Positions 5,036 to 22,816 of a stretch of DNA of 64,000 nt are shown piece after piece. Below the pieces are notes generated by a model. It was given only the letters and a program-made list of their open reading frames with translations. It was not told where the DNA came from and searched no databases. Origin of the DNA: Yoonia vestfoldensis SKA53 (GTDB taxonomy: Bacteria > Pseudomonadota > Alphaproteobacteria > Rhodobacterales > Rhodobacteraceae); assembly GCF_000152785.1 (NCBI RefSeq), contig NZ_CH672414.1:1113563-1177562 (forward strand), read 5' to 3'. Both the position numbers and the translations under genes were made by a program. The first letter of the stretch is position 1; each line of letters opens with the position of its first letter.

Positions 5036-6409
5036 ATGGCAATTGAAATTCTGATGCCCGCCCTGTCCCCGACGATGGAAGAAGGCACTTTGGCCAAATG
5101 GCTGGTCAAGGAAGGCGACAAAGTGTCCTCCGGTGACATTCTGGCCGAAATCGAAACCGACAAGGCCACGATGGAATTCGAGGCCGTGGACGAAGGTGTG
5201 ATCGGCAAAATCCTGATCGCTGAGGGCACCGAGGGCGTCAAGGTCAACACCGCCATCGCCGTGCTGGTCGAAGAGGGCGAAAGTGCGGACGAGGCTCCGG
5301 GGCAAGCCCGCGACGCGGCCGCCCCGGCCCCCGCGCCGGGGCCTCAACCATCCACCAAGGCCCCCGCAGTCGCCAAACCCGCAGCCCCCGTGGCCGATGT
5401 CAGCCCCGATTGGCCCGCCGATGTCGCGATGAAACCAACCACGGTCCGCGAAGCCTTGCGCGATGCGATGGCCGAAGAAATGCGCCGCGACGCGGATGTG
5501 TTCCTGATGGGCGAAGAAGTGGCCGAATATCAGGGTGCCTATAAGATCAGTCAGGGCCTGCTGGACGAATTCGGCGCCAAACGCGTGATCGACACGCCGA
5601 TCACCGAACACGGCTTTGCCGGCATCGCCACCGGAGCGGCCTTTGGCGGGCTCAAGCCCATCGTCGAATTCATGACCTTCAACTTTGCCATGCAGGCGAT
5701 CGACCACATCATCAACTCTGCCGCCAAGACGCTTTATATGTCGGGTGGGCAGATGGGCGCACCGATGGTGTTTCGCGGTCCCAACGGCGCCGCTGCCCGC
5801 GTGGGTGCGCAGCACAGCCAGGATTATACCGCCTGGTACATGCAGATCCCCGGTCTCAAGGTCGTCGCCCCCTATTCCGCTGCCGATGCCAAGGGGCTGC
5901 TCAAATCCGCGATCCGCGACCCCAATCCGGTGATCTTTCTGGAAAACGAAATCATGTACGGCAAATCCTTTGACGTGCCGGTCATGGATGATTTCACCAT
6001 TCCCTTCGGCAAGGCGAAAATCGAACGCGCCGGCACTGATGTGACCATCGTCAGCTTTAGCATCGGCATGACCTATGCGCTGCAAGCGGCCGAAAAACTG
6101 GCCGCAGAAGGGATCAGCGCCGAGGTGATCAATCTGCGCTCGATCCGCCCGATGGATACCGAAACCATCCTGGCGTCCGTGCGCAAGACCAACCGCTGCG
6201 TCACCGTCGAAGAAGGCTGGCCGCAAGGCAGCGTCGGCAGCTACATCAGTTCGGTGATCATGCAGCAGGCATTCGATTATCTGGATGCACCCGTGATCAA
6301 TTGCACCGGCAAGGATGTGCCGATGCCCTATGCCGCCAACCTTGAAAAACACGCCTTGCTGACCGTCGATGAAGTCGTCGCCGCCTGCAAGCAAGTGACC
6401 TACCGCTAA
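5036..6409 (+). CDS. pdhB: Pyruvate dehydrogenase E1 component, beta subunit, with N-terminal lipoyl domain
   Basis: Completes the E1 ThDP site with PdhA. Residues 1 to about 80 form a biotinyl-lipoyl domain with lipoyl-lysine K43 in ETDKATMEF. An Ala/Pro-rich linker (about 83-125) follows, then a full transketolase-type E1-beta (about 140-457: [36 protein letters not shown]). The extra lipoyl domain on E1-beta is known in alphaproteobacterial PDH. The linker contains a palindromic repeat read in frame (5291-5345). The start has AGGAGG 8 bp upstream. Part of the lipoyl coding sequence is identical to that of pdhC. Confidence 0.96.
5291..5345 (+). repeat. Palindromic repeat inside the pdhB linker
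   Basis: A degenerate CCGGGG-CAAG-CCCGCG hairpin is followed by the arms GCCCCGGC (5321-5328) and GCCGGGGC (5335-5342). The last 25 bp (5321-5345) are identical to 6731-6755 in pdhC. It is translated in frame into a PGQARDA...PAPAPGP linker. It looks like an interspersed repeat tolerated because the linker is flexible. Confidence 0.6.
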
Positions 6410-6421
6410 GGAGACAATGCG

Positions 6422-7732
6422 ATGCCTACAGAAATTCTGATGCCCGCCCTGTCGCCCACGATGGAGGAAGGCACGCTGGCCAAATGGCATGTCAAGGAAG
6501 GCGACAAAGTGTCGTCAGGTGACATTCTGGCCGAAATCGAAACCGACAAGGCCACGATGGAATTCGAGGCCGTGGACGAAGGGATCATGGGCAAGATCAT
6601 GATCGCTGAGGGCACCGAAGGCGTCAAAGTCAACGACGTGATCGCCGTGCTGTTGGAAGAGGGTGAATCAGCCGGTGATATCAGCAAGGTCCCGGGTGAA
6701 GCCCGGGACGCGTCGGCGAAGAAAGCTGACGCCCCGGCCCCCGCGCCGGGGCCTCGCGCCGCAGCCGCCGCACCCGCCGTAGCCCCCGCCAAGGACAGCA
6801 GCCGCGTTTTCGCCTCCCCCCTCGCCCGCCGCATCGCGGCTGAAAAGGGTCTCGATCTGGCAGGTGTCAGCGGCTCCGGCCCGCATGGCCGGATCGTCAA
6901 GGCCGATGTGCAAACCGCCAAGGCCGGTGCCACGCACGCCCCCACCACGGCAGCGGCCCCCAAGGCCGAAGCCCCCAAAGCCGCCACCACCATGGCAACT
7001 GGCCCCAGCACCGACGCCGTTATCAAGATGTATGACGGCCGTCCCTACACCGAGGTCAAGCTTGACGGGATGCGCAAAACCATCGCCGCCCGTCTGACCG
7101 AAGCCAAGCAATCGGTGCCGCATTTTTATCTGCGCCGCGATATCAACCTCGATGCGCTGATGGCTTTTCGTGGTCAGCTCAACGCCCAGCTTGAAGGGCG
7201 CGGCGTCAAACTGTCGGTCAATGATTTCATCATCAAAGCCTGCGCGCTGGCGCTGCAACAGGTGCCTGACGCCAATGCCGTCTGGGCCGGTGACCGCACG
7301 CTGAAGTTCGCAAAATCCGATGTGGCCGTGGCTGTCGCGATCGAAGGCGGGCTGTTCACCCCCGTCCTGCGCGATGCGGAAATGAAATCGCTTTCGGCGC
7401 TGTCCGCGGAAATGAAAGACTTGGCCACCCGCGCGCGCGACCGCAAACTCGCCCCGCAGGAATACCAAGGCGGCAGTTTCGCGATCTCAAACCTTGGCAT
7501 GTTCGGCATCGACAATTTCGACGCGATCATCAATCCGCCACATGCCGCGATCCTCGCCGTGGGTGCAGGCGTCAAAAAGCCTATCGTGGGCAAGGATGGC
7601 GCATTGGCTGTGGCGACGATCATGTCTGTCACCCTGTCGGTAGATCACCGCGTCATTGATGGCGCCTTGGGTGCGAACCTGCTGGCCGCGATCAAGGACA
7701 ATCTGGAAAACCCTCTGACCATGCTGGCCTGA
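6422..7732 (+). CDS. pdhC: Pyruvate dehydrogenase E2, dihydrolipoamide acetyltransferase
   Basis: Core acetyltransferase of the pyruvate dehydrogenase complex; it takes acetyl from E1 and forms acetyl-CoA. Domain order in 436 residues: one lipoyl domain (1 to about 80, lipoyl-lysine K43), linker, peripheral subunit-binding domain (about 126-160: [28 protein letters not shown]), a second linker, then the catalytic domain (about 205-436). The latter carries the CAT-type active site DHRVIDG, with His about 409 and Asp about 413. GGAGA directly after the pdhB stop serves as ribosome site. A strong hairpin at 7754-7783 ends the operon. Confidence 0.97.
6686..6755 (+). repeat. Palindromic repeat inside the pdhC linker
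   Basis: Two hairpins: TCCCGGG (6690-6696) with CCCGGGA (6702-6708), and GCCCCGGC (6731-6738) with GCCGGGGC (6745-6752). The second half matches the pdhB linker repeat exactly for 25 bp. The element is read in frame as VPGEARDAS...PAPAPGP. Confidence 0.6.
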
Positions 7733-8613: not shown

Positions 8614-8946
8614 TCAAGATGTCCTGTGTAACCCAGATAGGGTGCCATCGCCAATATCAAAGGTGTCATCCATCACATCACCAATCGTGATGGCCACAAA
8701 AGCCAGACAGTGCAGATAGTCCCGTGTCAGCACGGCTGGGCGCGGCGCGATTGATACGCGCGACAGCGCCGACATCAGCGTGCCGGTGCCATGATCGGGA
8801 TGCGCCGTGCCACAGGCCGCATGATGCGCCGCGCCACGCCGTGCCATATCGAGCAGCCGCGCCAAAAGGGCGGCTCTTTCGCAGGCGGGCAGCAGCAGCA
8901 AGGCCCGCGTGGCCAGTTCCAGATCGGCCAGTTGCAGCCCCCTCAC
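8614..8946 (-). CDS. Small protein of unknown function at the end of the GTA cluster
   Basis: 110 residues, starting with GTG at 8944-8946 that overlaps the TGA of g15 in a GTGA junction, so translation is coupled to g15. The N-terminal part is alanine/leucine-rich and helical (LADLELATRALLLLPACERAALLARLLDMARRG). It is followed by a His-rich segment (HHAACGTAHPDHG) and a hydrophobic part (YLHCLAFVAITIGDVMDD). No catalytic motif was recognised. A longer in-frame version reaches 9063, but its extra residues overlap g15 and look random. Its place between g15 and cysE suggests a GTA-associated role, which is inference only. Confidence 0.7.
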   Translation of the reverse strand: MRGLQLADLELATRALLLLPACERAALLARLLDMARRGAAHHAACGTAHPDHGTGTLMSALSRVSIAPRPAVLTRDYLHCLAFVAITIGDVMDDTFDIGDGTLSGLHRTS

Positions 8947-11900
8947 CCGACGATCCGCGCGGTAAAGGGGCCGGGACCGAACCGGTCGGACACTTGTGCA
9001 ACTTCGACGCGATAGGCCGCCCCGCCATGATCGGCGGCAATCAGGCTCGCGGGATAATGCCAAACCGGCGCGTCCAATGTCACGCTGCGGCGGATGATCC
9101 CGTCACGGATCACGCGGAGCTGATAACTTTCCACCGCCTCGCCCAACGGCACATCCGCGTCGCCCCAAAGATCGCCGTCAATCCGGCTGCACCTGATCCA
9201 TGACAGATGCAGCCCGTCCGCCGCCTGCCGCGCGCGCAGATGCGCCACCGGATAGGGCCGCAGCCCGTTGCCTTGGAACGCCGCGACGGTATAGCGGAAA
9301 CTGGGATCACCCAAGGGCCGCTTGGCCGGGCCATAGCGGAAATGGCGCGCCGCACCGCGCGCAGAAGACGCCAGCACCAGCTGGTCAACACGGGTGTCGA
9401 GCACCACAACGCGTGACCCCGCAGGCCACAGATCCGGCATGATCCCGCGACTGCCCGCCTGCCCGCGCAAAAGCCCGCGCAACCGGAACGCACCCGCACC
9501 CAAAGGCGTGGCATCACGGAATTGCAGCACTTCCCACGCGTCAGGCGATCCGTCACCGATGGCCAGCAGGTTCGCCCCCGCCAGCACCGCCTGCGCCGTG
9601 GCACTGCCCAGCGCGCCGGTCAGCAACCGCACATCAAACCCCGCCTGCCGGTCCCACAGCCCCGCCCGCCCGCGCGGCAGGGGCGTCAGCGTCTCGCCAA
9701 TGCCGGCGGGATCGCGGATAATGTCCTGCAAGGCATAATCGCTGTCCTGCGCGGCACCGTAAACCGCCACCGACCCCGGCCAAGGTGCGCCCGCCACCGC
9801 CAGATGCGGCGCATGGGGGATTTCATCGCCGCGCAGCAAGGGCAGATCAAGAAACAGCAATTCCACCGGCACGGGGGCGGCAAAGGGTTTCAGCACGGCG
9901 GCCTGATCCTCGGACCGGACAGGCTGATAGGTGCCAGCACTGATCCGCGTGGCGTCAACCAATTGCAGACCCGCATCTTCAATCCGGTCGATGCGGTAAT
10001 CCCCCGCATGCCCGGGCAGATCGACAGCAACCACATCGCCCGCCCCCACCGCACGCGAGGGCGGCAGCGCGAAGGTGATACTGTCGCGCGCAACCCGCGC
10101 CTCTTGCAGCCAGCGTGTCGCGATGGCGCGGCCTTCGGCACGGGTCAGCGCCAAGGGCAATTCATGCCGCGCCACGGCAAGGCTGGTCGCATCGGCATGG
10201 GCGGCATCGGCGGCGGCGGGTTCATAATCGCCATCGGCATCCAGATGCAGCACCTGCACGCGCTGTGCGGTCTCTGACGCAGGCGCGCGGGTCAGCGACC
10301 ATGCCTGATCCTGTTCGGGGTCAAGCGCCAGATCGGCCAATCCCAGCTGCGCGCTGATCCGTGCCGTGCGATTGCGGAAAATCAGCGTACCACCCTGTTC
10401 GACCGCATCAAACCCGTAGGCCAGCATCAAGGGCTGCAAGGCCGCCCGCCCGCTGGCCGCATGATCCAGCAGATAGCCGCGCACGATGCCAAACAGCCGC
10501 GAGACATCATAGGCCACAATCCCCGCAGCCTCGCAAATCGCCGCGACAACCGAGGCCAGCGGCAGGTTGGTCGCCCGCCCGCCCAACCAATGCCCGCGCG
10601 CGTAATTGCCCGCATCGGCCCACAGGGTGCGATTGGCCGGAAAGAACGGATAGGGCCGCGCATCCCATGCCCAGACATGCATCCGGCCTGTATCGACCAT
10701 CGGCCCACCATAGACGGACGAGACGGGATTATTGGCAGGGTCGGCATAATGCTGCGTCATCGCGCGCAGATATTGCATCTGCATCAGATCATCGCGCTGG
10801 CCGTTGGAATAATGCGGCAGGCCGGATTCCGATGATTTGGCATCCAGAAACTTGTTGGGCTGGTTGGCGCCTTTGTCGATGGCCGCACAGCCATATTCGG
10901 TAAACCAGACCGGTTTGGATTGCGGCACCCATGCGGTGGGGGTGGCACTGCGCAGGCCCCCCACGCGGTCATGATGCGGCTGGCCCCACCAATTGACGAT
11001 ATCCTTGGTGCGCCAGATCCACGGCTCGCCCAGACCATCGGTGATGGGTTCACGGCGTTGGGCATCGCGGGCCTCTGGTGTGGGATAAAACCAGTCATAG
11101 CCTTCACCACCTGCGATATTGCCGCGCAGATAGGCCAGATCATGGATCGCGCCTGCGCTGGCATCGGCATGGGTATCGCCATCGCGCCAATCGGCCAGCG
11201 GCATGTAATTGTCGATCCCGATGAAATCCACGTTGGGGTCAGCCCAAAGCGGGTCAAGGTGAAAAATCTTGTCCGCCGTCCCTGCGGGCTGATACCCGTG
11301 ATATTCCGACCAATCGGCAGCATAGCTGATCTTGCAATCAGGCCCGAGGATCGCGCGCACATCACCGGCCAGCGCGCGCAGGGCCGCCACCGCCGGAAAG
11401 CTGCCATCACTGCTGCGCACCTGCGTCAGCCCGCGCATTTCCGAGCCGATACAAAAAGCATCGACCCCGCCCGCCGCCGCACATAGATGCGCGTAATGCA
11501 AAATGAACCGCCGGTAGCCGCCATTGGCCGGGCCGGTATAATCGACCCGCGTGCCTTGGACGCTGAAATGCGCAGGTTGCGCTGCGCCCATGAACGCCGC
11601 CACCTCGGCCGCCGCTGTCGCTGTGCCATTGCCCGCCGCCGTGATCCGCCCGCGCCATGGCAAGGCGGGCTGGCCGATGTCGCCGGTCCACGGATCGGGC
11701 AGATCGTTTCCCGCCAGCTGTTCCATCAGGATGAACGGATAAAACACCGCTGCAATGCCGCGCGCGCGCTGGTCGATGATTGCCTGCACCACCGCCGCAT
11801 CCGCAGGCGTGCCGCCATAAACCGGCGCGCCTGCGTCAAAGGCCACACGCGAGGCAGTCGCCCGGGTCAGGCCCGACACGCGCCACGGCATCGCCTGTGC

Positions 11901-12806
11901 ATCCACATCGTTCTGTTCGACCTTTGGCAGCACGGTGCAATCGCCACAGCGCAGGTCATCGCCAAACCATGACACCACCAGCACCAAGGATGTGCAGGCA
12001 GGCAGATCACCTTGCAGCGCATCCATCGCATGGGTGTAATCGGTCTGGCCGGACGGCGCGTTCATATTCACCGCCACCTGTTCGCCAAAACGTGGCGACA
12101 GATACACAGGCTGCGTCGCCAGCCCGTATTCGCCGGTGCCGGGGATCAGCGCCACGCCTTGCACGACAGCAGCAAGGCCCCCGTCCAGCCCGGCGCGGAT
12201 CACCTCGAAGGTCAGTTGCGGAATGCGGTTGCCAAAGCCGCCCAGATCCAGATCCTCGATCACCACATAGGCGGTGCCGCGATAGGCGGGGACATGGCCT
12301 GCACCTTCGACGGCCTCCATCTTGGGGTCGGGGAATTGGTCGGCACTGCCGGTATAGACCCGCATGTTCAGATCATCGGGCGCGATTTCCACCCCATCGG
12401 CCCAGATCCGGCCCACACGGCTGATCGGCCCTTCGCACAAAGCCAAGGCAAAGCTCGCGCGGTAGCTATAGGTCGTGGTCCTTGGCGCGGCAGGCGCGCC
12501 TTTGCCACCGCCGGTCGTGGTGCTGGATTGGGTGAAATGGCTGGCCCAGATCACTTGGCCCCCCACGCGCATGCGGCCATAAACCTGCCCGATATCGCGG
12601 CCTTCGGCAGCCCCCGTCAGGCGGAACCGGTCAACGCGGCCGGTGTCCACCGCAGCGCTGCCCGCGCCCATCAGGCGCTGGTCGATCCGCGCGCCGATCA
12701 TCGCGCCCGCCGCACGACCCGCCGCCGCCATCGACAGCCCCATGACGGTGCCACCCACCGAGCCGCCCAGCGCCATGCCCGCCGCCGCAAGAACAATCGT
12801 TGCCAT
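8943..12806 (-). CDS. GTA megatron / host-specificity baseplate protein (g15)
   Basis: The largest GTA protein (1287 residues), matching RcGTA orf g15, which builds the central baseplate fibre-hub and contacts the host cell. The N-terminus MATIVLAAAGMALGGSVGGT is Gly/Ala-rich and hydrophobic. A region at about 380-780 carries the TIM-barrel-like glycosidase fold (CIGSEMRGLTQVR, FIGIDNYMPLADWRDG, KPVWFTEYGCAAIDKG), followed by phage-tail beta-rich domains and a C-terminal domain related to the Rcc01698 family. The start at 12804-12806 has AGGATC upstream; the longer in-frame start at 12827 overlaps g14. No frame breaks were noticed across 3.9 kb. Confidence 0.93.
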   Translation of the reverse strand: MATIVLAAAGMALGGSVGGTVMGLSMAAAGRAAGAMIGARIDQRLMGAGSAAVDTGRVDRFRLTGAAEGRDIGQVYGRMRVGGQVIWASHFTQSSTTTGGGKGAPAAPRTTTYSYRASFALALCEGPISRVGRIWADGVEIAPDDLNMRVYTGSADQFPDPKMEAVEGAGHVPAYRGTAYVVIEDLDLGGFGNRIPQLTFEVIRAGLDGGLAAVVQGVALIPGTGEYGLATQPVYLSPRFGEQVAVNMNAPSGQTDYTHAMDALQGDLPACTSLVLVVSWFGDDLRCGDCTVLPKVEQNDVDAQAMPWRVSGLTRATASRVAFDAGAPVYGGTPADAAVVQAIIDQRARGIAAVFYPFILMEQLAGNDLPDPWTGDIGQPALPWRGRITAAGNGTATAAAEVAAFMGAAQPAHFSVQGTRVDYTGPANGGYRRFILHYAHLCAAAGGVDAFCIGSEMRGLTQVRSSDGSFPAVAALRALAGDVRAILGPDCKISYAADWSEYHGYQPAGTADKIFHLDPLWADPNVDFIGIDNYMPLADWRDGDTHADASAGAIHDLAYLRGNIAGGEGYDWFYPTPEARDAQRREPITDGLGEPWIWRTKDIVNWWGQPHHDRVGGLRSATPTAWVPQSKPVWFTEYGCAAIDKGANQPNKFLDAKSSESGLPHYSNGQRDDLMQMQYLRAMTQHYADPANNPVSSVYGGPMVDTGRMHVWAWDARPYPFFPANRTLWADAGNYARGHWLGGRATNLPLASVVAAICEAAGIVAYDVSRLFGIVRGYLLDHAASGRAALQPLMLAYGFDAVEQGGTLIFRNRTARISAQLGLADLALDPEQDQAWSLTRAPASETAQRVQVLHLDADGDYEPAAADAAHADATSLAVARHELPLALTRAEGRAIATRWLQEARVARDSITFALPPSRAVGAGDVVAVDLPGHAGDYRIDRIEDAGLQLVDATRISAGTYQPVRSEDQAAVLKPFAAPVPVELLFLDLPLLRGDEIPHAPHLAVAGAPWPGSVAVYGAAQDSDYALQDIIRDPAGIGETLTPLPRGRAGLWDRQAGFDVRLLTGALGSATAQAVLAGANLLAIGDGSPDAWEVLQFRDATPLGAGAFRLRGLLRGQAGSRGIMPDLWPAGSRVVVLDTRVDQLVLASSARGAARHFRYGPAKRPLGDPSFRYTVAAFQGNGLRPYPVAHLRARQAADGLHLSWIRCSRIDGDLWGDADVPLGEAVESYQLRVIRDGIIRRSVTLDAPVWHYPASLIAADHGGAAYRVEVAQVSDRFGPGPFTARIVG

Positions 12807-12807
12807 A

Positions 12808-13242
12808 TCAGATGATCCTTTGTGCAAAGAGGAAACGCGCCGCGATCCGGCGCGCCCAAGGTGCGCTCAGCGGGCTTTCGACAACGCCATGCCCGCTATA
12901 GGCGTGAATGAACGCAGGGGCGGCGCCGGTGACTGACACCAGCCCCAGATGCTTGGCCACCCCGCCCGCGCGCATCCGAAACAACAGCACATCGCCCGCC
13001 GCCAGCGGCCCCGTGGCGGGCGGCATATGGCGCAGCGCGGCCTGCCACAGCCGTTCCTGCCCCTGCGGTTCGGACCAATCGGGCGTGTAGGCCGGAACCT
13101 GTTCCGGCTCTGCCCCATGCAATTCACGCCAAAGCCCGCGCAACAGGCCCAGACAATCGCAACCGACACCCTTGGCCGCCGCTTGGTGCAGATAGGGCGT
13201 ACCGATCCAGTCCCGCGCGGCCAGTACCACGGGCGGCGTCAT
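12808..13242 (-). CDS. GTA cell-wall peptidase, NlpC/P60 family (g14)
   Basis: 144-residue cysteine peptidase expected to open the recipient peptidoglycan during GTA DNA entry, as for RcGTA g14. The start MTPPVVLAARDWIGTPYLHQ at 13240-13242 overlaps the g13 stop in an ATGA junction. The catalytic Cys is in GVGCDCLGLLRGLW and the His in FIHAYSGHGVVES. The DVLLFRMRAGGVAKHLGLV segment is the usual NlpC/P60 core strand region. It ends 1 bp before the g15 start. Confidence 0.93.
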   Translation of the reverse strand: MTPPVVLAARDWIGTPYLHQAAAKGVGCDCLGLLRGLWRELHGAEPEQVPAYTPDWSEPQGQERLWQAALRHMPPATGPLAAGDVLLFRMRAGGVAKHLGLVSVTGAAPAFIHAYSGHGVVESPLSAPWARRIAARFLFAQRII

Positions 13243-14120
13243 GGGTTGCGCCGGCTTTGGCCGGTCAGGTTGCTGTCGCTGCGCGGCACAGCGACCAGCC
13301 AATCATCGCCCGGGATATCGGGAAAGCCCTGAAAGTTCAGCAGATTGGCAAATTTCACGCGGCAGGTCACAGCCGCCTTGTCGCAGCCCGCGGTCAGGGT
13401 CAACATATCCGCCACGCCAATGCCTGCGCGGATCGGGTCCCACAGCGTAATCTCGCGTACCGCGTTCAACAGCCGGTCGGATTTCACCACCCCCGACAGG
13501 CCAGCGGCAGGGCCGGTGGTGACCTGCAATTGCCCCGCCTCAAACCAGCCATCGTTGAACATGGCCTGCCCCGCAAAACGGAACACACGGTTATCTTGCA
13601 CCGCGACAGGCTGTGCGCTGAACCGGTAGGCCGGATCATCCAGCGCGAACCGGCAACGCGCATCCCCCAACACAGCGGAGCATTGCGTCAGATATGACCG
13701 CCCCTGCGGCTGGTTCAGCATCTCGGTCAGCCCGCGAAGTTCGGCCTGAAAGCCACCTTTGGCGCGGGTGATCTCGCCCAGGATGCCCGCAAATTGCAGT
13801 GCGCGGTCGGCCAGCGCATCCCAGCGCACCTGCCAGATGCGCACCATGGCCCCGTCATAGCGGCCCGCGGTGATATCGGCCTCAGATATCGCATCCGACG
13901 ACAGCGCGCCCAGCGCCTCGGTATTGTTCACCGACAGCCCCGTGGTGCTGGACAAGGCGCGCGCAGACAGACCCGTGTCAGGGGCAAAGCGGATACCGTC
14001 AAAGCTCAGCGGCAGATCATGGTCGGTGAACCCCAAGGTCACCCCGTCAAGACGGGTGACGGCCCAGCAATGGCAGGTCTGCGTCGCGCCACCTGCCAGA
14101 TGTGCGGCAAGCCCGGTCAT
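13239..14120 (-). CDS. GTA tail hub protein, DUF2163/BR0599-like (g13)
   Basis: 293 residues, homologous to RcGTA g13, the baseplate hub related to phage lambda L-type tail tip proteins. Two cysteine pairs occur in the C-terminal half (QCSAVLGDARC at about 145-160, and GCDKAAVTC at about 250-260). They are positioned as expected for the iron-sulfur site of this family. An extra TCHC lies at residues 15-18. Both ends overlap neighbours by 4 bp (g12 stop/ATG and TGA/g14 ATG). No abnormality seen. Confidence 0.92.
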   Translation of the reverse strand: MTGLAAHLAGGATQTCHCWAVTRLDGVTLGFTDHDLPLSFDGIRFAPDTGLSARALSSTTGLSVNNTEALGALSSDAISEADITAGRYDGAMVRIWQVRWDALADRALQFAGILGEITRAKGGFQAELRGLTEMLNQPQGRSYLTQCSAVLGDARCRFALDDPAYRFSAQPVAVQDNRVFRFAGQAMFNDGWFEAGQLQVTTGPAAGLSGVVKSDRLLNAVREITLWDPIRAGIGVADMLTLTAGCDKAAVTCRVKFANLLNFQGFPDIPGDDWLVAVPRSDSNLTGQSRRNP

Positions 14121-14746
14121 ATCCGCACCTCGATCACCGGCACGTCGGGGGCCTCGCCCGCCTGAAAGCGTGACATGGATGTGCGGATCGTATCGGTGGC
14201 AAAACGCACCGGCACGTCAAATTCGAACGCCGCCCTGATTTGCGCGCCAATGTCGGGCGGATCGGTGAAACTGACGATGCCGGTCGTAACATCGACGGTA
14301 TAATCCACCCCTGCGACCATCGCATCACCCCCACGGCTGACACGGATCGTGCCTGCGACGGGTTTCGTGATGGGGCGGATATAGCTGGTCTCGCCCGACC
14401 GATAGGTCTTGGACAGCTGGAATTGCGTGGTCAGCTCGTCACCCAGACCGATCAACTGGTCCGGCCCTGCAGTATCCTGCGAGGGCAGGCAGGATTTGTA
14501 ATCCGACCAGTCTTTCCAGCGAAAACCGATCAACTGGCCTTGGCGCGCCTCGAAAAACGCGATCAGCACCGCCAGATCGTCCAGCGCGCTCAGCCCCAGC
14601 CCCGCGTCATAACGCCTGCGCGCATGCGCCCAAGGCGTGTTGCGTTCCTCGTATCCATTGGCAAGGGTGACCACCTCGGTGCGCCGTTCCGGCCCGCCGG
14701 TGGCGCCGAATGACAGGTTGGCGGGAAATCTGATCTCGTGAAACAT
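14117..14746 (-). CDS. GTA distal tail protein, DUF2460 family (g12)
   Basis: 209 residues, corresponding to RcGTA g12 (distal tail ring linking tube and baseplate). Start MFHEIRFPANLSFGATGGPE at 14744-14746 with AAGGAC upstream. A longer in-frame start at 14884 would overlap the tape-measure gene and adds Arg/Ser-rich noise, so it is rejected. Motifs of the family: RRTEVVTLANGYEERN, FFEARQGQLIGFRWKDWSDYKS, and a beta-rich C-terminus ending VPVIEVRI. It overlaps g13 by 4 bp. Confidence 0.92.
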   Translation of the reverse strand: MFHEIRFPANLSFGATGGPERRTEVVTLANGYEERNTPWAHARRRYDAGLGLSALDDLAVLIAFFEARQGQLIGFRWKDWSDYKSCLPSQDTAGPDQLIGLGDELTTQFQLSKTYRSGETSYIRPITKPVAGTIRVSRGGDAMVAGVDYTVDVTTGIVSFTDPPDIGAQIRAAFEFDVPVRFATDTIRTSMSRFQAGEAPDVPVIEVRI

Positions 14747-14756
14747 CGCGTTGTCC

Positions 14757-15416
14757 TTAGCTGTTGCGCTGGCTGCGCTGCATCGCGCGCGCCATCTGCT
14801 GTGCGATCTGCGACTGGCTGCGCTGGAAGCCCTGCACATCGGGTGTGGTGATCTGCATGGTGACATGCACGCCACCGCCACCACCGCCGCGCACGCCCAG
14901 CCGCCCGTCAGGGCCGCGCGCCAGTGGCATGATCGCCTCTGGCCCCGCCTCGCCCATCAATCCGGTGCCGCCGCGCATCGGGAATGTCGTGGGGCTGGAC
15001 ACGATCCCACCCTTGGCAAAGGGCATCACGCGGCCTTGCGAAAACGGCGCACCATCGGCAAAGGGCATCAGGCCGGAGACCAGGCTGTTCAGCCCCCCTG
15101 CCAGCATCCCGCCGAAATGGTCGGTCACAGGTTTCAGCGCGGCATTATAGACCGTGCCAGACATCGACCGGCCCAGACCGGCAAAGACATCCGACAGGGT
15201 CTTGCCATCCAGCACCAGCCCATCCAGCGCGCGGCGCAATCCGTTTGAGAACCCCCGTTCGAGATTGCCCAGATCGCGGGTCGTATCGCTCAGCGCAGTT
15301 TGCGTGCCGCGCAATTGCGCCTCAAAGGCCGCCGTGACAGCCGACACATCGCCAAGGCTGCGTTCCAGCGCGGAAATATCGCTGTCAAAGGCATCAAGCC
15401 GGTCAAGATCATTCAT
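14757..15416 (-). CDS. GTA tail tape-measure protein (g11)
   Basis: 219 residues, corresponding to RcGTA g11. The N-terminal half is helical and heptad-like (SALERSLGDVSAVTAAFEAQL...), fitting a short tail tape measure. It is followed by the conserved FAKGGIVSSPTTFPM and GEAGPEAIMPLARG of tape-measure C-termini, then a Gly-rich stretch and a Gln/Arg-rich tail. Two in-frame ATGs exist: 15420-15422 lies immediately after AGGGT, while 15414-15416 has better spacing and is used here. It overlaps g10.1 by 8 bp. Confidence 0.9.
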   Translation of the reverse strand: MNDLDRLDAFDSDISALERSLGDVSAVTAAFEAQLRGTQTALSDTTRDLGNLERGFSNGLRRALDGLVLDGKTLSDVFAGLGRSMSGTVYNAALKPVTDHFGGMLAGGLNSLVSGLMPFADGAPFSQGRVMPFAKGGIVSSPTTFPMRGGTGLMGEAGPEAIMPLARGPDGRLGVRGGGGGGVHVTMQITTPDVQGFQRSQSQIAQQMARAMQRSQRNS

Positions 15417-15612
15417 CTTCATACCCTATTGGATCATCGGGAAAGGCGCGCGCCAGCGCATCCAGCCCCGCGCGCGTCATCGGCGCAGGCCCGGCCTGCG
15501 CGCCCAGCATCAATTGCAGTTCCGCAGGCGTCAGCGCCCAAAAGACGGCAGGCGACAGGCGCAAGCTGCAAAGCCCCGCGCGCATCAGCCCTGCCCAGTC
15601 CAGCGGTGTCAT
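15409..15612 (-). CDS. GTA small tail-assembly protein (g10.1 position)
   Basis: 67 residues. The position between g10 and the tape measure matches RcGTA g10.1 and the second tail-assembly chaperone of siphophages. The core reads WAGLMRAGLCSLRLSPAVFWALTPAELQLMLGA, typical of this short family (Trp-x-x-PxE/L core). Its start overlaps the g10 stop in an ATGA junction. No programmed frameshift is needed to make it, because it has its own start. Confidence 0.86.
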   Translation of the reverse strand: MTPLDWAGLMRAGLCSLRLSPAVFWALTPAELQLMLGAQAGPAPMTRAGLDALARAFPDDPIGYEDE

Positions 15613-15923
15613 TGCGGCACTGTGAAGGCCCGCGCCAGCAGGCGCGCGGCCAGCCGTGCCGCACCCAGCGGCCCGCCGGGAAAATCCACCGCCAGCAGAT
15701 CATCCGCCTGTCCGCGCCAGCCGCCGCCGCGCAGCCCTGCCACGATCACGGCCATCACATCGCGGCTGGAAAACGCACCACATTCAAACCGCGCCACCAG
15801 ATCGACCAGCGACCCGGTTTGCAGGGTCGCTTCCAGCTCGGCCAAAGCACCCAGCGTCAGCTTGGCCTCGATCACGCTGTCACCGATGGTGACGGCCACT
15901 TCACCCGCGAAAGGATTGGCCAT
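15609..15923 (-). CDS. GTA tail-assembly chaperone, GTA_Gp10 family (g10)
   Basis: 104 residues beginning MANPFAGEVAVTIGDSVIEAKLTLGALAELEATL, the typical opening of the Gp10 family, in which a small beta domain precedes helices (SSRDVMAVIVAGLRGGG). It likely helps load tail-tube subunits or the tape measure. Start and stop overlap neighbours by 1 bp (TGATG with g9) and 4 bp (ATGA with g10.1). Confidence 0.9.
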   Translation of the reverse strand: MANPFAGEVAVTIGDSVIEAKLTLGALAELEATLQTGSLVDLVARFECGAFSSRDVMAVIVAGLRGGGWRGQADDLLAVDFPGGPLGAARLAARLLARAFTVPQ

Positions 15924-16339
15924 CAGACCAGCGCCACGAATTGCAAGGCGCCGCCCGACGCCAGCGCGATTTCATAGCTCGCCTCGCCGTTATGGCTGCC
16001 TGCGTAATCAATGCCGGTGATCTGGAAAGCGCCTTGCAGCATGCCGAAACCGGGGATGATGACCTGAAAATCCGGCATCAGCCCGCCAAAGAAAATCTGG
16101 CGCGCGCGCTCGTCCGTGGCGTCATCCTTGAACACGCCCGCGCCGGAAATCGCGGCGGTTTTCACCCCCGCACCGCCCAGCAATTCGCGCCAGCCCCCGG
16201 TGCTGTCAAGGCTGGTCACATCCACCGTTTCCGCATTCAGGCTGATCCGCGTCGCGCGCAGGCCGGCCAAGGTTTCAAACTGGCCATCGCCGGTCATGTC
16301 GATCTTGATCAGCAGGTCTTTTCCGTTCTGGGCCACCAT
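15923..16339 (-). CDS. GTA major tail tube protein, TP901-1-like (g9)
   Basis: 138 residues. Begins MVAQNGKDLLIKIDMTGDG and contains the family pattern LRATRISLNAETVDVTSLDSTGGWRELL with a C-terminal beta-strand region ending in FVALV. This is the repeating tube subunit of the GTA tail. AAAGGAGAG sits 8 bp before the ATG. A 24-bp gap to g8 is one of the few non-overlapping junctions in the tail genes, in keeping with a separate strong ribosome site for a highly expressed protein. Confidence 0.92.
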   Translation of the reverse strand: MVAQNGKDLLIKIDMTGDGQFETLAGLRATRISLNAETVDVTSLDSTGGWRELLGGAGVKTAAISGAGVFKDDATDERARQIFFGGLMPDFQVIIPGFGMLQGAFQITGIDYAGSHNGEASYEIALASGGALQFVALV

Positions 16340-16363
16340 CGGGGCTCTCCTTTATGATCGGGG

Positions 16364-16777
16364 TTAAATGTCGTCGGCCACACGGGCGCGAAAGGTCAGG
16401 GTGATCTGGCGCATGTTGCCGGTGCTGGTGCGCGCGGCCTTGGCCTTGGTGAAATGCAGGCCGACCAGCGTGCCGCGCGACAGCGTCAATGGCGCATCCA
16501 GCAGCGCATCGCAGACAGCGCCGGCCGCGGCCTTGGCACCGGCGAACCCTGCCGCCTCGCTCAGTACATCAATGCTCAGCGCATGCGTGGCGCCATTGCC
16601 GGTCTTGTCGGAGGCATCGCGCACATCCTCGTTGCCCAGCACCACATAAAGCGGCGGCAAGGGACCGGCAGGCACCGCGTCATAGATCGCAGCCCCCACC
16701 AGCGTGGCAAGTGCCGGATCAGCACTCAGCCGTGTATAAACCGCCGTCTGCAGCGCGGCCGCGATGGCATAGGTCAT
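16364..16777 (-). CDS. GTA tail terminator protein, DUF3168 family (g8)
   Basis: 137 residues with the DUF3168 pattern: ALQTAVYTRLSADPAL, AIYDAVPAGPLPPLYVVLGNE, HALSIDVLSE, and a C-terminal beta strand QITLTFRARV. In RcGTA and siphophages this ring caps the head-proximal end of the tail. The start overlaps the g7 stop in an ATGA junction. Confidence 0.9.
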   Translation of the reverse strand: MTYAIAAALQTAVYTRLSADPALATLVGAAIYDAVPAGPLPPLYVVLGNEDVRDASDKTGNGATHALSIDVLSEAAGFAGAKAAAGAVCDALLDAPLTLSRGTLVGLHFTKAKAARTSTGNMRQITLTFRARVADDI

Positions 16778-17112
16778 GTGGCCACCTCCTCGGTTGCGGT
16801 GCAGGTCAGATACAGACCCTTGTCATCAGCCTCGGTCACCGCCGCGATGGCGAACAACCGCGCGCCCAGCCGGAACCTTTGGCCCGGTTGCGGGCGCGAT
16901 GGCGCACCATGAGGCGCGGCACGCAGGATGATCTGGTAAGGCACGCGCGACAGGCTGGCCGACAGCGCCGCTGCCTCCCGCCCGGTGCCGGGCTTGATTG
17001 CGGCCCAGACGCGGCCCAAGCTCTGCCAGTCGCTGCTGAAACCACCTGCGCCATCAGGGGTCTGCACGCGGTGTTCCAGCACCAGCGCGCGGGTCATTTG
17101 CGGAATGCTCAT
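16774..17112 (-). CDS. GTA head-tail stopper/adaptor protein (g7)
   Basis: 112 residues with the phage head-tail adaptor fold signature: MTRALVLEHRVQTPDGAGGFSSDW, VWAAIKPGTGREAAALSASLSRVPYQIILR, and PGQRFRLGARLFAIAAVTEAD. It is expected to close the neck between connector and tail. It overlaps g6 and g8 by 4 bp each. Confidence 0.91.
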   Translation of the reverse strand: MSIPQMTRALVLEHRVQTPDGAGGFSSDWQSLGRVWAAIKPGTGREAAALSASLSRVPYQIILRAAPHGAPSRPQPGQRFRLGARLFAIAAVTEADDKGLYLTCTATEEVAT

Positions 17113-17696
17113 GCCCGCCCCCCCAGACGCAGATCGCGGAACCTGTCCACCATGGCGGTGACGCTGGGCGGCAGGGCGGCGATGGCCATATCATGGCGGC
17201 TGTCGTAATGATGGGCGGCCAGCATCAGGCTGGCCTGTGCCAGATCGGCAGGCAGGTCCGACCAGTCCGGCCCGAACCCCGCCATCAGCCCGATCCGCAC
17301 CGACCCATGCGGCGGCACCGGCGGCAACACCCCACCCTTGGCCACCAGCGCGGGGCGCGTCGCATCAGCCACCAGATACCATGTGGCGGGGTCGGTGAGG
17401 GTTGCGGCCCCGTCATGGGCCAGCTGCGTGACATGCACGATGGCATTGACCGGCGCGATCGGCAGCAGCTGACGCACCGGATCGCGCCAGGCACGCAGGG
17501 TCCAGGTGAAATCGCGGTCAATCAGGATCTTGCCAGTGCGTGCCTCGATCGCGGCCATGGCGGCGCGCAGATGCCGCAACAACAGCCCGTCCTGATCGGC
17601 ATCATCGACAAAACCCGTGGCAAGGCGCAGATATTCTTTCAGCTGCGCCACCGGCAAAACCGCGTCGGGTACCGGATTTTCTTCGACTAACATCAT
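17109..17696 (-). CDS. GTA head-tail connector protein (g6)
   Basis: 195 residues, RcGTA g6-like adaptor that sits under the portal. The N-terminal helical part (LKEYLRLATGFVDDADQDGLLLRHLRAAMAAIEARTG) is the gp6/YqbG-like connector motif. Then come ILIDRDFTWTLRAWRDPVRQLLPIAPV and a C-terminal helix LAQASLMLAAHHYDSRHD. Start Met at 17696 (a second Met follows) has GGAG 9 bp upstream. A 154-bp gap separates it from the capsid gene. Confidence 0.9.
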   Translation of the reverse strand: MMLVEENPVPDAVLPVAQLKEYLRLATGFVDDADQDGLLLRHLRAAMAAIEARTGKILIDRDFTWTLRAWRDPVRQLLPIAPVNAIVHVTQLAHDGAATLTDPATWYLVADATRPALVAKGGVLPPVPPHGSVRIGLMAGFGPDWSDLPADLAQASLMLAAHHYDSRHDMAIAALPPSVTAMVDRFRDLRLGGRA

Positions 17697-17850: not shown

Positions 17851-19029
17851 TCAGCTGACCGCGAATTTCAGCAGCTTGATCGCGGCGAAATCGCTGACCG
17901 CACCGCCCACGCGCTTGGTGGCATAAAACAGCACATGCGGCTTGGCCGAGAACGGATCGCGCAACACGCGCAGATCGGGGCGTTCGGCCACGGTATAACC
18001 CGCCCCGAAATCACCGAACGCGATGGCGGCAGAGCCTGCCGCGATATCGGGCATGTCTTCGGCCACCAGCACCGGATAACCCATCAGCCGCGCAGGCTCG
18101 CCCGCGGCCAGACCGTCGGACCACAAGAAGCGGCCGTCATTGTCCTTGAGCTTGCGGATCGTGCCAGCGGTCTTGGAATTCATCACAAAGCTGGCATTGG
18201 CGCGGTACACCGCCCCCAAGGCATAGACGAGGTCCACAATCGGATCACCCGACTGGATGCCACCGGAAACACCCGTGGCCACGAAACCGATATTGCCCCA
18301 TTCCCAGATCTCGTTTTCGACCTGTGGATAGGTCAGCATCCCCTTGGGCTTGTCGATCCCGTCGCCGTTGATAAACGCCGCCGCTTCCGAGCGCGCGAAT
18401 TTATCCGCGATCCGGCCTGCCAACCAGCCTTCGATGTCAAAGGCACTGTCATCCAGCAGCCGCTGCGACGCCTTGGGCAGCGCCGAAAGTTCATGCAGCG
18501 CAATGCTGATCCGGTCGATCTGCGGTGTAGTGGTTTCCGCCATGCTGCCCGTCTCGGTCGCCCAGCCAGCGCCCATTTCGGTGTGATCGACCAGCACGTC
18601 ATAAGATGTGGCATCCACCGTCACAACGCTGGCCACAGCCCGCAAGGATGCGGTCGAGGACAAGGTGCTTTTGATCGTCTCGGCGGTCTGGGGGTCCACC
18701 AGATAGCCACCATCGGCGGCCATCACCGATGACAGCGCCTTGCCGTCCAGATCCAGCCCGCGCAGCGCGTCATCATCGCCCGAGCGCAGATAGGCGGCAA
18801 AGGCCTTTTGATGCGGTGCATCCGGCACAGCCCCTGTCGTCAACGCGCTGCGGGCGGTCATCATCGTCTTGCGATCCAGCTTGTTCATGCGGTCATCCTG
18901 TTTTTGAAGTTTGGCCTGCAGGCCGTTGGTAAAGTTGGTGAAATCCGCCAGAAATCCGGCGATGGCTTCGGTCAGGTCAGGCGCGGACAGATCTTCTGCG
19001 ATCCGGGCCTTGGGCACGGGTGTGGTCAT
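17851..19029 (-). CDS. GTA major capsid protein, HK97 family (g5)
   Basis: 392 residues. The N-terminal 90 residues are charged and helical (KLQKQDDRMNKLDRKTM), the part removed by the prohead protease in RcGTA. The HK97-fold core starts near ALSSVMAADGGYLVDPQTAE and includes VDHTEMGAGWATETGSMAE, SQRLLDDSAFDIEGWLAGRIADKF, EAAAFINGDGIDKPKG and a C-terminal P-domain with DFGAGYTVAERPDLRVLRDPFS. The length and order are normal. TTTCC (minus GGAAA) precedes the ATG. Maturation of this protein depends on g4, whose gene is out of frame here. Confidence 0.95.
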   Translation of the reverse strand: MTTPVPKARIAEDLSAPDLTEAIAGFLADFTNFTNGLQAKLQKQDDRMNKLDRKTMMTARSALTTGAVPDAPHQKAFAAYLRSGDDDALRGLDLDGKALSSVMAADGGYLVDPQTAETIKSTLSSTASLRAVASVVTVDATSYDVLVDHTEMGAGWATETGSMAETTTPQIDRISIALHELSALPKASQRLLDDSAFDIEGWLAGRIADKFARSEAAAFINGDGIDKPKGMLTYPQVENEIWEWGNIGFVATGVSGGIQSGDPIVDLVYALGAVYRANASFVMNSKTAGTIRKLKDNDGRFLWSDGLAAGEPARLMGYPVLVAEDMPDIAAGSAAIAFGDFGAGYTVAERPDLRVLRDPFSAKPHVLFYATKRVGGAVSDFAAIKLLKFAVS

Positions 19030-19053: not shown

Positions 19054-19586
19054 TTAAAGCGGGGGCAGCAGGTGGCGCGCCTGCGCAAAAGCACGCGCAA
19101 GACGGTCCAGATCATCGGTGTCGCGGGCCTGCGCCTTGGCAGTGACACGGGCCTCGGGCAGCATCGGAAAGGTGACCAAGGACACTTCCCACAGGTCCAG
19201 TTCCGACAGGCGGCGCGCGCCGCTGGCGTCTTTATGCGCGCGCAGCGTGCGATAGCCGATCGACAGCCCGTCGATGGCGCCCGCCGCGATCAGGCTTGCG
19301 GCCTCGCGGGCGCGGGCGATGTCGGTCAACAGACGGCCCCGGACCCAGAGGCCCTTGGCATCCTCGACCACCTCGTCCCAGACGCCGATGGGCTGGGCCG
19401 GATCATGCTGCCATAGCATCTTGATCCGGCGTCCCTTGGACAGGCTGATGCGATAGGCACCGGCCTCGACGATATCGCCCCCCCCTGATCGGTTGCGCCG
19501 AACAAGGATGCATAGCCGCTGATCACCTGCCCGTCGGTAACGGTCACGGCCTGCGGGCCGGTGCAGAATTTATGTTCCAAACTCAT
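19054..19586 (-). pseudogene. GTA prohead protease, HK97 family (g4), frame broken at a run of eight G
   Basis: The start MSLEHKFCTG at 19584-19586 overlaps the g3.5 stop (ATGA) and reads the normal N-terminus to GYASLFGATDQGG. At 19478-19485 (8 C on the plus strand) the rest of the protease continues in the -1 frame: DIVEAGAYRIS, MLWQHDPAQPIG (catalytic His), GAIDGLSIGYRT (catalytic Ser) and the normal end HLLPPL. Six or nine G would keep one frame. Without a shift the product is 86 residues and ends at 19326. A sequencing error, a real mutation, a phase-variable tract or -1 slippage on G GGG GGG would all fit; see findings. Everything else about the gene is intact. Confidence 0.85.
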
Positions 19587-19789
19587 GATATGGCTCCAGT
19601 GATTGCCTTGACGATCTCGATAACCAGCAGACCGGCGCAGCCGCAGACCACGATCCAGACCTGCCATGCCAGCCGTGCGATGATGCTTTCGATCCGGCCA
19701 AGGCGCAGATCGACCTGCGCGAACCAGAAATCCGATGCAGGCGGCGGCGGGCGGCGCTGGCCGCGCAGGGCGATCACCTTGTCATCCAT
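19583..19789 (-). CDS. GTA small membrane protein (g3.5), head formation family
   Basis: 68 residues, start MDDKVIALRG at 19787-19789 overlapping the portal stop by 8 bp. A Pro/Arg-rich stretch (QRRPPPPASDFWFAQVDLRLGRIESI) is followed by one predicted membrane helix (WQVWIVVCGCAGLLVIEIVKAI). Its place between portal and protease matches RcGTA g3.5 (rcc01685), reported to be needed for head formation. The membrane helix suggests heads may assemble near the membrane, which is inference. Confidence 0.85.
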   Translation of the reverse strand: MDDKVIALRGQRRPPPPASDFWFAQVDLRLGRIESIIARLAWQVWIVVCGCAGLLVIEIVKAITGAIS

Positions 19790-20957
19790 GCTGGCCGACC
19801 TCCTGCGCAGGCAGGCCCAACAGGCGGCGCTTTTCGGCATCACTCAGGAACGCAGCCGCCCCCACCCGCGCCCACAGGCTGTCACGTTCATGCGACAGCG
19901 CGGCGATCTGGTCGCTATCGGGGCGGATCTCGATCCGCTGGCCCGAAAAATCCGACAGCCAGTCCGCGATGACCGATGCCACGCGGGTCGCCAAAGGCAG
20001 CACCGTCAGGCGGTAGAAGGCGCGGTTGGCCTCTTGGTAATTGGCATAGGTCGCGTCACCGGGAATCCCCAGCAGCATCGGCGGCACACCAAAGGCGATG
20101 GCAATCTCGCGCGCGGCGGCCTCCTTGGTTTTCTGAAATTCCATGTCAGAGGGCGAAAACCCCATCGGTTTCCAGTCCAGCCCCCCTTCCAGCAGCATCG
20201 GCCGGCCTGCGTTGCGCGCGCCCTGATGCTGGCTTTCCATTTCACTGACCAGCCGGTCGTATTGATCACTGGTCAGCGCAGATTGACCATCCGCACCGCG
20301 ATAGACAATCGCGCCCGAAGGCCGTGCCGCATTGTCAAGCAAGGCCTTGGACCAGCGCGAAGCGGCATTATGCACGTCGATGGCCGCGGCACAGGCCTGC
20401 AAAGGCGAAAACCCGTAATGATCATCTTGCGGATGAAAGGATTTGACATGGCAGATCGGGCTGTGATCCTCGGTGACGGCAAAGCGGTGCTTGCGGCCAT
20501 CGACACTATATTCATACCCCTTGGGCCAGCCATCCGGCCCCGGGATCACGGCCATCCGGTCAGAGCGCAGAACATGGATCTCGGCCGGCAGGCGATCCAC
20601 CGCCACCGCCTCCAGATAACCGTTGCCGGTCAGCAGCAACTGCCCGAACAAGGCTTCGAGCAATTCTGCACGGCCCTGTGCGCCATTGGGACGCGCCAGT
20701 AGCGCCTGCACCGGATGGCGGTCATAGCGGTGGTCGTCATCCTGCACCACCAGCGGGATCGCTGCGGCCGCCTCGGCAATCAGGCGCACCGCACGAAAGC
20801 CGACCGGATTGCCCAGAAACCCTGTCCGGGTCAACGACACGACATCGCGCGGCGACCAGGCCACCCGCCCCGCCCCCTGCAGCGCGACGACACGGCCCGT
20901 GGCCGAGGTCTTGACCTGCGGTGCAGCGGGCGGTTTGCGGTTCAGGAAATCAAACAT
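19782..20957 (-). CDS. GTA portal protein, HK97/phage portal family (g3)
   Basis: 391 residues forming the dodecameric DNA entry ring. Family landmarks: FRAVRLIAEAAAAIPLVV, LLARPNGAQGRAELLEALFGQLLLTGNGYLE, VKSFHPQDDHYGFSPLQACAAAIDVHN, MDFQ-like MEFQKTKEAAAREIAIAFGVPPMLLG and QEANRAFYRLTVLPLA. Start MFDFLNRKP with GAGGAGAAGCC upstream. It is separated from the terminase gene by 253 bp of repeat-rich DNA, unlike the tight spacing elsewhere, so it may need its own promoter or read-through. Confidence 0.94.
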   Translation of the reverse strand: MFDFLNRKPPAAPQVKTSATGRVVALQGAGRVAWSPRDVVSLTRTGFLGNPVGFRAVRLIAEAAAAIPLVVQDDDHRYDRHPVQALLARPNGAQGRAELLEALFGQLLLTGNGYLEAVAVDRLPAEIHVLRSDRMAVIPGPDGWPKGYEYSVDGRKHRFAVTEDHSPICHVKSFHPQDDHYGFSPLQACAAAIDVHNAASRWSKALLDNAARPSGAIVYRGADGQSALTSDQYDRLVSEMESQHQGARNAGRPMLLEGGLDWKPMGFSPSDMEFQKTKEAAAREIAIAFGVPPMLLGIPGDATYANYQEANRAFYRLTVLPLATRVASVIADWLSDFSGQRIEIRPDSDQIAALSHERDSLWARVGAAAFLSDAEKRRLLGLPAQEVGQHG

Positions 20958-21210: not shown

Positions 21211-22587
21211 CTACAACCCCCTGATCTGGGGGTGGCGCCAGCTTTGGGCCGGGCCGATCATCAGGTCGTGGATCGCCCAGACCAAAGCATCGACACGGTC
21301 GGGCGATCCGCGGCCCTGATAGCCCGCGCCGGTCATCTGGCACATCTGGTCCTCCAGATCGCCAAGCCCGCGCAGGTGCCGCACGCGGCCCTGTTCATAA
21401 AGGGCGGCGACAGGTTCGGCGCGCGCGATCTTGCCACGGCTGGCATGGACCGCGCGCAACGGCACCAGCGGGTCGATCTGGCGGATCACGGCAGCGACCA
21501 TGTCACCGCCCTGGTTCACCTCGGCCACCAGCCGGTCGGCATTGTGGCGCGCCATGGCACCAATGGCAGCGCGCGCCCAGGTATCGGGGCTGGCGCCTTG
21601 CAGGCTCGCGTCTTCGAGCACATAGGCGCGCCAGTCCTGCACCGGCCCTGCCATCACCACGCCTGCGACGATGATCCCGCAGGCATCCGATCCGGCATGG
21701 GCCGTGGTGGGCGGGTCGATCGCGACGACAATTCGCGTCAGCGGCGGTGCTCTGTCCACCTGACAGGCGGCCAGCGCGCCCATCTGCCATAAGGCGCCAT
21801 CCACATCATCGAGCATCACGCCTTCGAGTTCCTGCCGCCCCAATGCCGTGCCAGCATATTCCGCCGTCATTTCCGCCAGAAAGCTGTCGGCGAGATTGGC
21901 GCGATTGGCGCTGGTGGGGGCATGGGTGACGACCGTGCTGGGCCGGTCCAGCAGTTTGCGCAGCAATGCCTGCCTGCGCGGCGTTGTCGTGACGCAGACG
22001 CGCGGTGCATCCCCCAGCCGCAACCCGAATTGCAGCATGTCCCATGTGGCCGCAGCCTTGCGCCATTTGGCCAGCTCGTCCACCCACGCGGCATCGAACT
22101 GGGGGCCGCGCAGCGCCTCTGGGTCTTGCGCGGAAAACAGCGTGGCCTGCGCGCCATTGGGCCAGACCAGCATCTGGCGGGTAGCGATCCATTTGGGGCG
22201 CGCGTCGGGCGGGCAGACCGCCATGATCCCGCTGTCACCGAACACCATCACCTCGCGCGCCTGGTGATAGGTTTCACCGACCACCGCGATCCGGCGCGCA
22301 CCACTGGCCACCATGCGGCGCACCCATTCGGCGCCCGCGCGGGTCTTGCCGGCCCCCCGTCCGCCCAAGATGACCCAGGTCCGCCAATCGCCCTGCGGCG
22401 GCAATTGATGCGGCATCGCCCAGAAGGCAAACAGATAGGGCAGCGCCTGCAATTCGGCGTCACTCAGGCTGGTCAGGAACGCCTGTTGCACCGAGACTGG
22501 CGCGGAGGCGATCAAATCTGCGCCCAAGCTCGTCGCGGATGCTGTCAAGGTCGGCGCTGTCAGCGGGGTTTGCGGTTTGGGCAGCAT
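21211..22587 (-). CDS. GTA large terminase subunit (g2)
   Basis: 458-residue packaging motor that fills GTA heads with host DNA. The ATPase domain has Walker A GGRGAGKT (75-82) and Walker B AWVDE (167-171), followed by the coupling motif VCVTTTPRR. The nuclease domain has acidic residues in VVAIDPPTTAHAGSDACG, LVAEVNQGGDMV and a C-terminal SPDRVDALVWAIHDL. The first 128 bp overlap the 3' end of g1 in another frame. A later in-frame start would remove this overlap but also the N-terminal residues; the longer form is kept with moderate certainty about the exact start. Confidence 0.94.
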   Translation of the reverse strand: MLPKPQTPLTAPTLTASATSLGADLIASAPVSVQQAFLTSLSDAELQALPYLFAFWAMPHQLPPQGDWRTWVILGGRGAGKTRAGAEWVRRMVASGARRIAVVGETYHQAREVMVFGDSGIMAVCPPDARPKWIATRQMLVWPNGAQATLFSAQDPEALRGPQFDAAWVDELAKWRKAAATWDMLQFGLRLGDAPRVCVTTTPRRQALLRKLLDRPSTVVTHAPTSANRANLADSFLAEMTAEYAGTALGRQELEGVMLDDVDGALWQMGALAACQVDRAPPLTRIVVAIDPPTTAHAGSDACGIIVAGVVMAGPVQDWRAYVLEDASLQGASPDTWARAAIGAMARHNADRLVAEVNQGGDMVAAVIRQIDPLVPLRAVHASRGKIARAEPVAALYEQGRVRHLRGLGDLEDQMCQMTGAGYQGRGSPDRVDALVWAIHDLMIGPAQSWRHPQIRGL

Positions 22588-22816
22588 TGAAAGCCTCCTC
22601 TGCGGTCAGCACCTTGAGATGCGCCGCGATCAATTGATCCATACGGGTGATAATCGTGCGGGGGGTATCTTCGGTCAGATCGTCGGTGATCCGCAGGCTG
22701 TGGTCCAGCAAGGCGCGGATTCGCGCGAACAGGGTCGTGATTTCCGCCACCCGCGCCTGAGCCTGAGCCTGTGCCTTGGCCTGCGCGGTGGAATCGTGGT
22801 CGTGTCGTGCAGTCAT
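22460..22816 (-). CDS. GTA small terminase subunit (g1)
   Basis: 118 residues, first gene of the cluster. The N-terminus is low-complexity (Ala/Gln repeats, residues 10-22), followed by a helical region (VAEITTLFARIRALLDHSLRITDDL, IITRMDQLIAAHLKVLTAEEAFNAA) and a charged C-terminus. It corresponds to RcGTA g1, a divergent TerS. The predicted ATG at 22814-22816 has only a weak ribosome site (CAGGTC). The DNA just upstream (22817-22916) must hold the GTA promoter, but no sigma-70-like pair is obvious, in line with dependence on a dedicated activator (GafA) in R. capsulatus. Confidence 0.85.
   Translation of the reverse strand: MTARHDHDSTAQAKAQAQAQARVAEITTLFARIRALLDHSLRITDDLTEDTPRTIITRMDQLIAAHLKVLTAEEAFNAAQTANPADSADLDSIRDELGRRFDRLRASLGATGVPDQPE

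Follow-up and report, generated by a model that had tools for sequence, protein, structure and literature searches.

Organization of the g4 locus

The stretch of DNA analyzed here, referred to as the window, comprises 64,000 nucleotides from the genome of Yoonia vestfoldensis SKA53, which is assembled as 3.07 Mb in three contigs. The window's minus strand carries an RcGTA-like gene cluster that begins with g1 near 22.8 kb and ends with g15 at 8.9 kb; its head-tail genes, among them those for terminase, portal, S78 protease, and HK97-fold capsid, stand in order. The genes g1 to g15, whose numbers we assign by their order (g1 and g2 being named by position), are syntenic with those of two related genomes (G022 and G055), and all are open in the window except g4. 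The features are as follows:

8943..17696, minus strand: g6 to g15, each one open frame and each aligning to G055 in one piece
17851..19029, minus strand: g5, major capsid protein, open
19054..19485, minus strand: continuation of g4 in another frame, with the HK97-type prohead protease (Peptidase_S78) domain
19054..19419, minus strand: possible restart ORF of 121 aa, from the ATG of MLWQHDP
19326..19586, minus strand: zero-frame ORF of g4, 86 aa, g4-like only over its first ~35 residues
19478..19485, minus strand: eight-G tract at which g4 leaves its frame
19583..19843, minus strand: g3.5, open, matching the NCBIfam RCAP_rcc01685 family below its cut-off
19782..20957, minus strand: g3, portal, open
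21211..22587, minus strand: g2, large terminase, open, with a TIGR01630 match below its cut-off
22460..22816, minus strand: g1, open

Elsewhere in the window, two ORFs (5036-6406 and 6422-7732) adjoin and are alike in their N-terminal ~95 residues.

At 19478-19485 the plus strand has eight C, which read as eight G in the minus-strand g4. From the ATG at 19586, the zero frame reads MSLEHKF...GATDQGG, continues as ISSRP..., and ends in a stop at 19326; its 86-aa product is without a match in the Pfam profile search. The neighboring frame reads GGGDIVEAGAYRISLSKGRRIKMLWQHDP... after the tract and continues to 19054. It matches Pfam PF04586 (Peptidase_S78) with E=3.1e-27 over profile positions 35-158 of 165, and it is the only frame in which the profile of the HK97-type prohead protease (PF04586 / TIGR01543) rises above the cut-off over the catalytic domain. 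No single open frame in the window leads from the start of g4 to that domain. The frames and the Pfam match thus bear out the original prediction, according to which g4 reads from a normal start to DQGG and loses its frame at the eight-G tract. When the downstream part of the protease was searched against the PDB, nothing matched convincingly (best E 0.15). For the restart ORF, the nearest purine-rich stretch is AAGGGA, 12 bases before the ATG, a weak candidate for a ribosome site. A strong inverted repeat lies within g4 at 19397-19430 (GCCGGATCA ... TGATCCGGC) and is also present in G022, G055, L268, and L270.

The codons across the tract are GAT CAG GGG GGG GCG ATA, so that the canonical heptamer G GGG GGG does stand in the zero frame, as had been claimed. 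It is weak evidence, however, because by arithmetic any eight-G run contains such a heptamer in two of its three phases. Runs of eight G are not enriched in the window either (three observed against 5.6 expected, with at least three in 84 of 100 shuffles), and the run was therefore dismissed as a special feature.

Alleles of the tract among relatives

The break of g4 is unusual among relatives. The g4 domain was matched in 42 of the 56 genomes of the genus, the window genome included; of the 41 others, 29 were inspected at the tract, and every one of these reads through it in one frame. Outside these 29, G046 has a shorter g4 match (query 2-109) in an open frame of 156 aa. In a set of 110 loci that includes the window, and in which some strains are present twice, 93 show DQGGD at the slot, 16 show a close variant of it, and the window alone is split. 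None of the 109 non-window loci has a third glycine at the slot, and the run there is at most four G in 105 of them, the same Gly-Gly being encoded by broken runs. No frameshifted g4 was found among the best 80 of 514 relatives in the genome collection, where seven stop flags were natural C-terminal ends. The same best 80 gave further flags in g5, g7, g12, and g14, and two metagenome-assembled genomes (MAGs) have genes split between frames (L090 in g5, L097 in g11). In the family, g4 is matched in 233 of 295 genomes; among the 150 matches listed, only that of the window begins after residue 10.

Environmental sequences provide closer comparisons, with species labels for their contigs assigned from identity in the g4 region. 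Of the best 80 of 588 viral-collection loci, the frame is unbroken from near the start of g4 in 76 and split in three (L188, L189, and L190); in a further contig, L248, the match to g4 starts at residue 28. Two 32-base patterns, one on each side of the tract, both retrieve the same six contigs. The comparison of close relatives that had been suggested as a check found six G, in frame, in L273, G022, L268, and L272, and an A followed by six G in L270 and L271. The contig L273 is 99.14% identical to the window in nucleotides over 8.3 kb; its g4 is intact, and each gene from g1 to g5 keeps one frame, as does g6 over the 175 of 195 residues that the contig covers. It is a single contig that stops short of the tail-fibre gene, and its identity to the window over 8.3 kb suggests that it is conspecific with the window strain. 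L268 and L272 are identical over 3.5 kb; in both, the portal gene g3 shifts frame near the C-terminus (L268 from 4471, L272 from 2769), giving 410 aa with an altered end. L270 and L271 are longer copies of L189 and L190. They come from two metagenomes, are 99.8% alike, and are one base out of frame in g4, and in L271 the other genes tested, from g1 to g14, are each in one frame. The same eight G as in the window are found in L188/L269, which is 100% identical to the window over 10 kb; given this identity, we take it for an assembly of the window's own strain and not for independent proof of eight G.

In the tree, the window groups with L273, apart from G022, L268/L272, and L270/L271. Because the break in the window (eight G) and that in L270/L271 (one base gained) differ, and both occur beside in-frame alleles, comparison of these sequences indicates that the tract has been hit by at least two separate frameshifts, each with in-frame close relatives.

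Age of the lesion

Since its split from L273, the window lineage has accumulated 13 synonymous and no nonsynonymous changes of its own in g1 to g6, and L273 has 14 and 7. Under neutrality, 13 to 0 would have P of about 2e-8 by simple site counts, with about a quarter of sites synonymous. The break is therefore young, or the genes were under selection until very recently; the sequence comparison makes a young g4 lesion probable, and the earlier argument against old decay holds. These counts date the g4 lesion only, not the tail-fibre stop described below. Over 13 GTA genes, the ratio of nonsynonymous to synonymous changes is 0.271 on the window branch and 0.119 on the G022 branch (Fisher P 0.0012), compared with 0.212 and 0.224 for 149 other genes. 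On the window branch alone, the difference between GTA and other genes gives P 0.055. Reading this contrast as old decay was rejected, since it owes much to the low value of G022; nor was the nonsynonymous excess accepted as decay in the window strain, since it predates the split from L273.

A second lesion and other accessory genes

The window genome has one gene of the DUF2793 family, 1.4 Mb from the cluster (G000:C1:2565558-2565815; L177 1432-2187), and this gene contains a TAG at codon 43 of 251, where both G022 and G055 have TCG. It lies between the same neighbors in the window genome (G000), G022, G055, and G054. In five other genomes searched, the family is present as a single copy in four and as four copies in G054. 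The accessible part of a published account assigns DUF2793 to the RcGTA tail-fibre family (PMC10883770), so that the possibility of a head-spike protein was rejected. The gene in the window genome is thus a member of the GTA tail-fibre family, with a putative tail-fibre role assigned from family membership. The tail-fibre interaction appears essential for transfer, according to the part of PMC10218006 that was available. The tail-fibre relative in G022 matches 8gtc_S in the PDB search (E=3.5e-15). Substitutions in this gene (13.5 synonymous and 7.5 nonsynonymous on the window branch, 8 and 2 on that of G022) are too few to judge.

The uptake genes dprA and comEC are open in the window genome. 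Also open is the DUF6456 gene (410 aa), which is presumably linked to GafA. The whole genome has one S78 match and no second S78 protease; a back-up protease compensating for g4 was accordingly rejected.

Competing explanations for the break

The original prediction left four explanations side by side. One of them, an error of sequencing or assembly in a strain whose true tract is in frame and whose g4 is intact, could be invoked since the tract is a homopolymer known from a single assembly and the closely related contig L273 is in frame. It is unlikely: when mechanically picked ORFs were compared with G055 over 224 kb of the window genome, 1 of 191 was split, and this was g4 itself. With a codon-use filter, it was 1 of 177, again g4; mid-gene stops were flagged in 6 of the 177, of which, by eye, four resemble over-extended starts and two spurious frames. 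By the same test, G055 itself has 2 of 192 ORFs split, and the G022 assembly is probably noisy, with 14 split records in 13 of 180 ORFs (14 in 12 of 175 by G055 ORFs). These include its GTA g12, a break that is probably an error and was not counted as real, and G022 was rejected as the sole comparator. Conversely, 3 of 184 G022 ORFs are split in the window genome: an antisense reading of the same tract, an ORF that is split in G022 itself, and one at offset 13. Other runs were also considered, with the first 30 loci of the run list and the window giving 27 distinct runs of at least eight G/C. In 15 of them, including runs inside long ORFs (L119, L122, L124, L130, L135, and L144), the sequence scores best in one and the same frame before and after the run. 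In the other 12 the best frame differs, most clearly at g4; nine others score negatively on one side or switch strand, and L133 and L143 are weak cases. The genome also holds a run of 22 G (G000:C1:2027127-2027148). An error in this one assembly would, moreover, have to be set against the same site being broken in two metagenome contigs (L270 and L271) and against a substitution-type stop in the second GTA-family gene.

Of the two explanations in which the tract would have a function, phase variation takes it for a contingency tract that reversibly switches capsid maturation, and hence GTA production, on and off among sibling cells of the Yoonia clade. The differing tract lengths among close relatives are consistent with this, as is the otherwise good conservation of g4, and in-frame and out-of-frame lengths occur within what is presumably one species (the window and L273). 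If the switch were true, the window, L270, and L271 would be OFF and L273, G022, L268, and L272 ON at g4, and producers and non-producers would be kept in one population. Such a switch is nevertheless doubtful. The in-frame state is six G, which is short for a hypermutable tract; in most other lineages the codons for this Gly-Gly are interrupted G runs; and the nonsense codon in the tail-fibre gene of the window strain is a lesion that a switch in g4 cannot undo. Of the proposed length-variable on/off tract, the difference in length between strains (eight and six G) stands, while a reversible switch is improbable. Recoding, whether by programmed -1 ribosomal frameshifting or by slippage of transcription on the run, would yield a full-length protease and is highly improbable. 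The zero-frame heptamer would suit it, and the downstream RNA is predicted to fold better than shuffles (z -3.7) and more strongly than in the in-frame L273 (-38.2 vs -30.0 kcal/mol). However, the heptamer is a by-product of the run, the strong stem begins 47 bases past the tract, and the in-frame L268 and L272 share the 83 bases of the window, with the same predicted fold in the in-frame G022; the fold therefore did not arise for a shift and was rejected as an RNA stimulator. Across the relatives examined, the shift is not conserved either: they are in frame without one or, in L270 and L271, shifted the other way, so that this allele would need the opposite (+1) shift. A -1 product would also hold an extra glycine, which none of the 109 other loci has.

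Probable recent loss of function of g4

The explanation that fits best is an inactivating mutation, because an intact allele exists at 99.1% identity (L273), a second frameshift occurs at the same place (L270/L271), and the tail-fibre-family gene carries a nonsense codon. It is likely that g4 carries a real and recent loss-of-function mutation. In the Yoonia clade, a synonymous change from GGC GGC (G055, DSM 16212) to GGG GGC would have created the six-G run, and replication slippage may then have lengthened that run by two G in the window strain; in a separate event, a sister lineage (L270, L271) would have acquired one base there. An HK97-type capsid deprived of its protease should fail to mature, and working gene-transfer particles would not be expected; the nonsense codon in the tail-fibre-family gene points to the same loss. 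In a strain that has a further lesion in a GTA-family gene, an essential GTA gene thus probably carries a real and recent loss-of-function allele.

No report of a frameshift in a GTA prohead protease was found in the literature searched. Among the listed papers that combine gene transfer agents, phase variation, and Rhodobacter, titles and the beginnings of abstracts mention no GTA-protease tract, and in the accessible part of one paper on homopolymers and slippage that mentions "gene transfer agent," the variable repeats lay in an adhesin gene. The accessible parts of PMC13236601, PMC9765227, PMC7296036, and PMC6209664 contain nothing on a broken g4. The mechanism is ordinary; what makes the case interesting is that very close relatives differ at a single mutable site of an essential GTA gene, some with the frame kept and others with it broken, and show little other decay. 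This looks like recent, recurrent gene loss rather than a new way of reading a gene. The g4 tract could serve as a place to measure the rate of GTA loss, its spread, and a possible G-run switch.

Comparison with known systems

The g4 of RcGTA (rcc01686, Rhodobacter capsulatus) belongs to the same protein family as g4 of the window. With the RcGTA gene order as we take it to be, both stand beside portal, g3.5-like, and capsid genes. The RcGTA gene works, whereas the copy in the window is frameshifted. According to the accessible part of one study, disruption of RcGTA g4 leaves no recombinants, and the gene is needed for gene transfer (PMC9690577).

Pseudogenised or missing clusters have led to the proposal that "cheaters" lose GTA production, as stated in the available text of a 2024 article (J Bacteriol 2024, PMC10883770). 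Like pseudogenised RcGTA-like clusters, the GTA of the window has a broken essential gene, with intact close relatives and with dprA and comEC open. It departs from them in two respects: its other cluster genes have not decayed after the strains separated, and two hits fell on one site. A g4 mutant whose lysis genes were induced would, in addition, still bear the cost of lysing, and so would be no obvious cheater.

The poly-G contingency tracts of Campylobacter jejuni have seven or more G, as given in the part of PMC4965091 that was available. The window g4 resembles poly-G contingency loci in that its G run lies within the gene, the length of the run sets the frame, and more than one length occurs among close relatives. 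It differs from them in that its in-frame state is six G and in that the strain carries a second, unlinked lesion.
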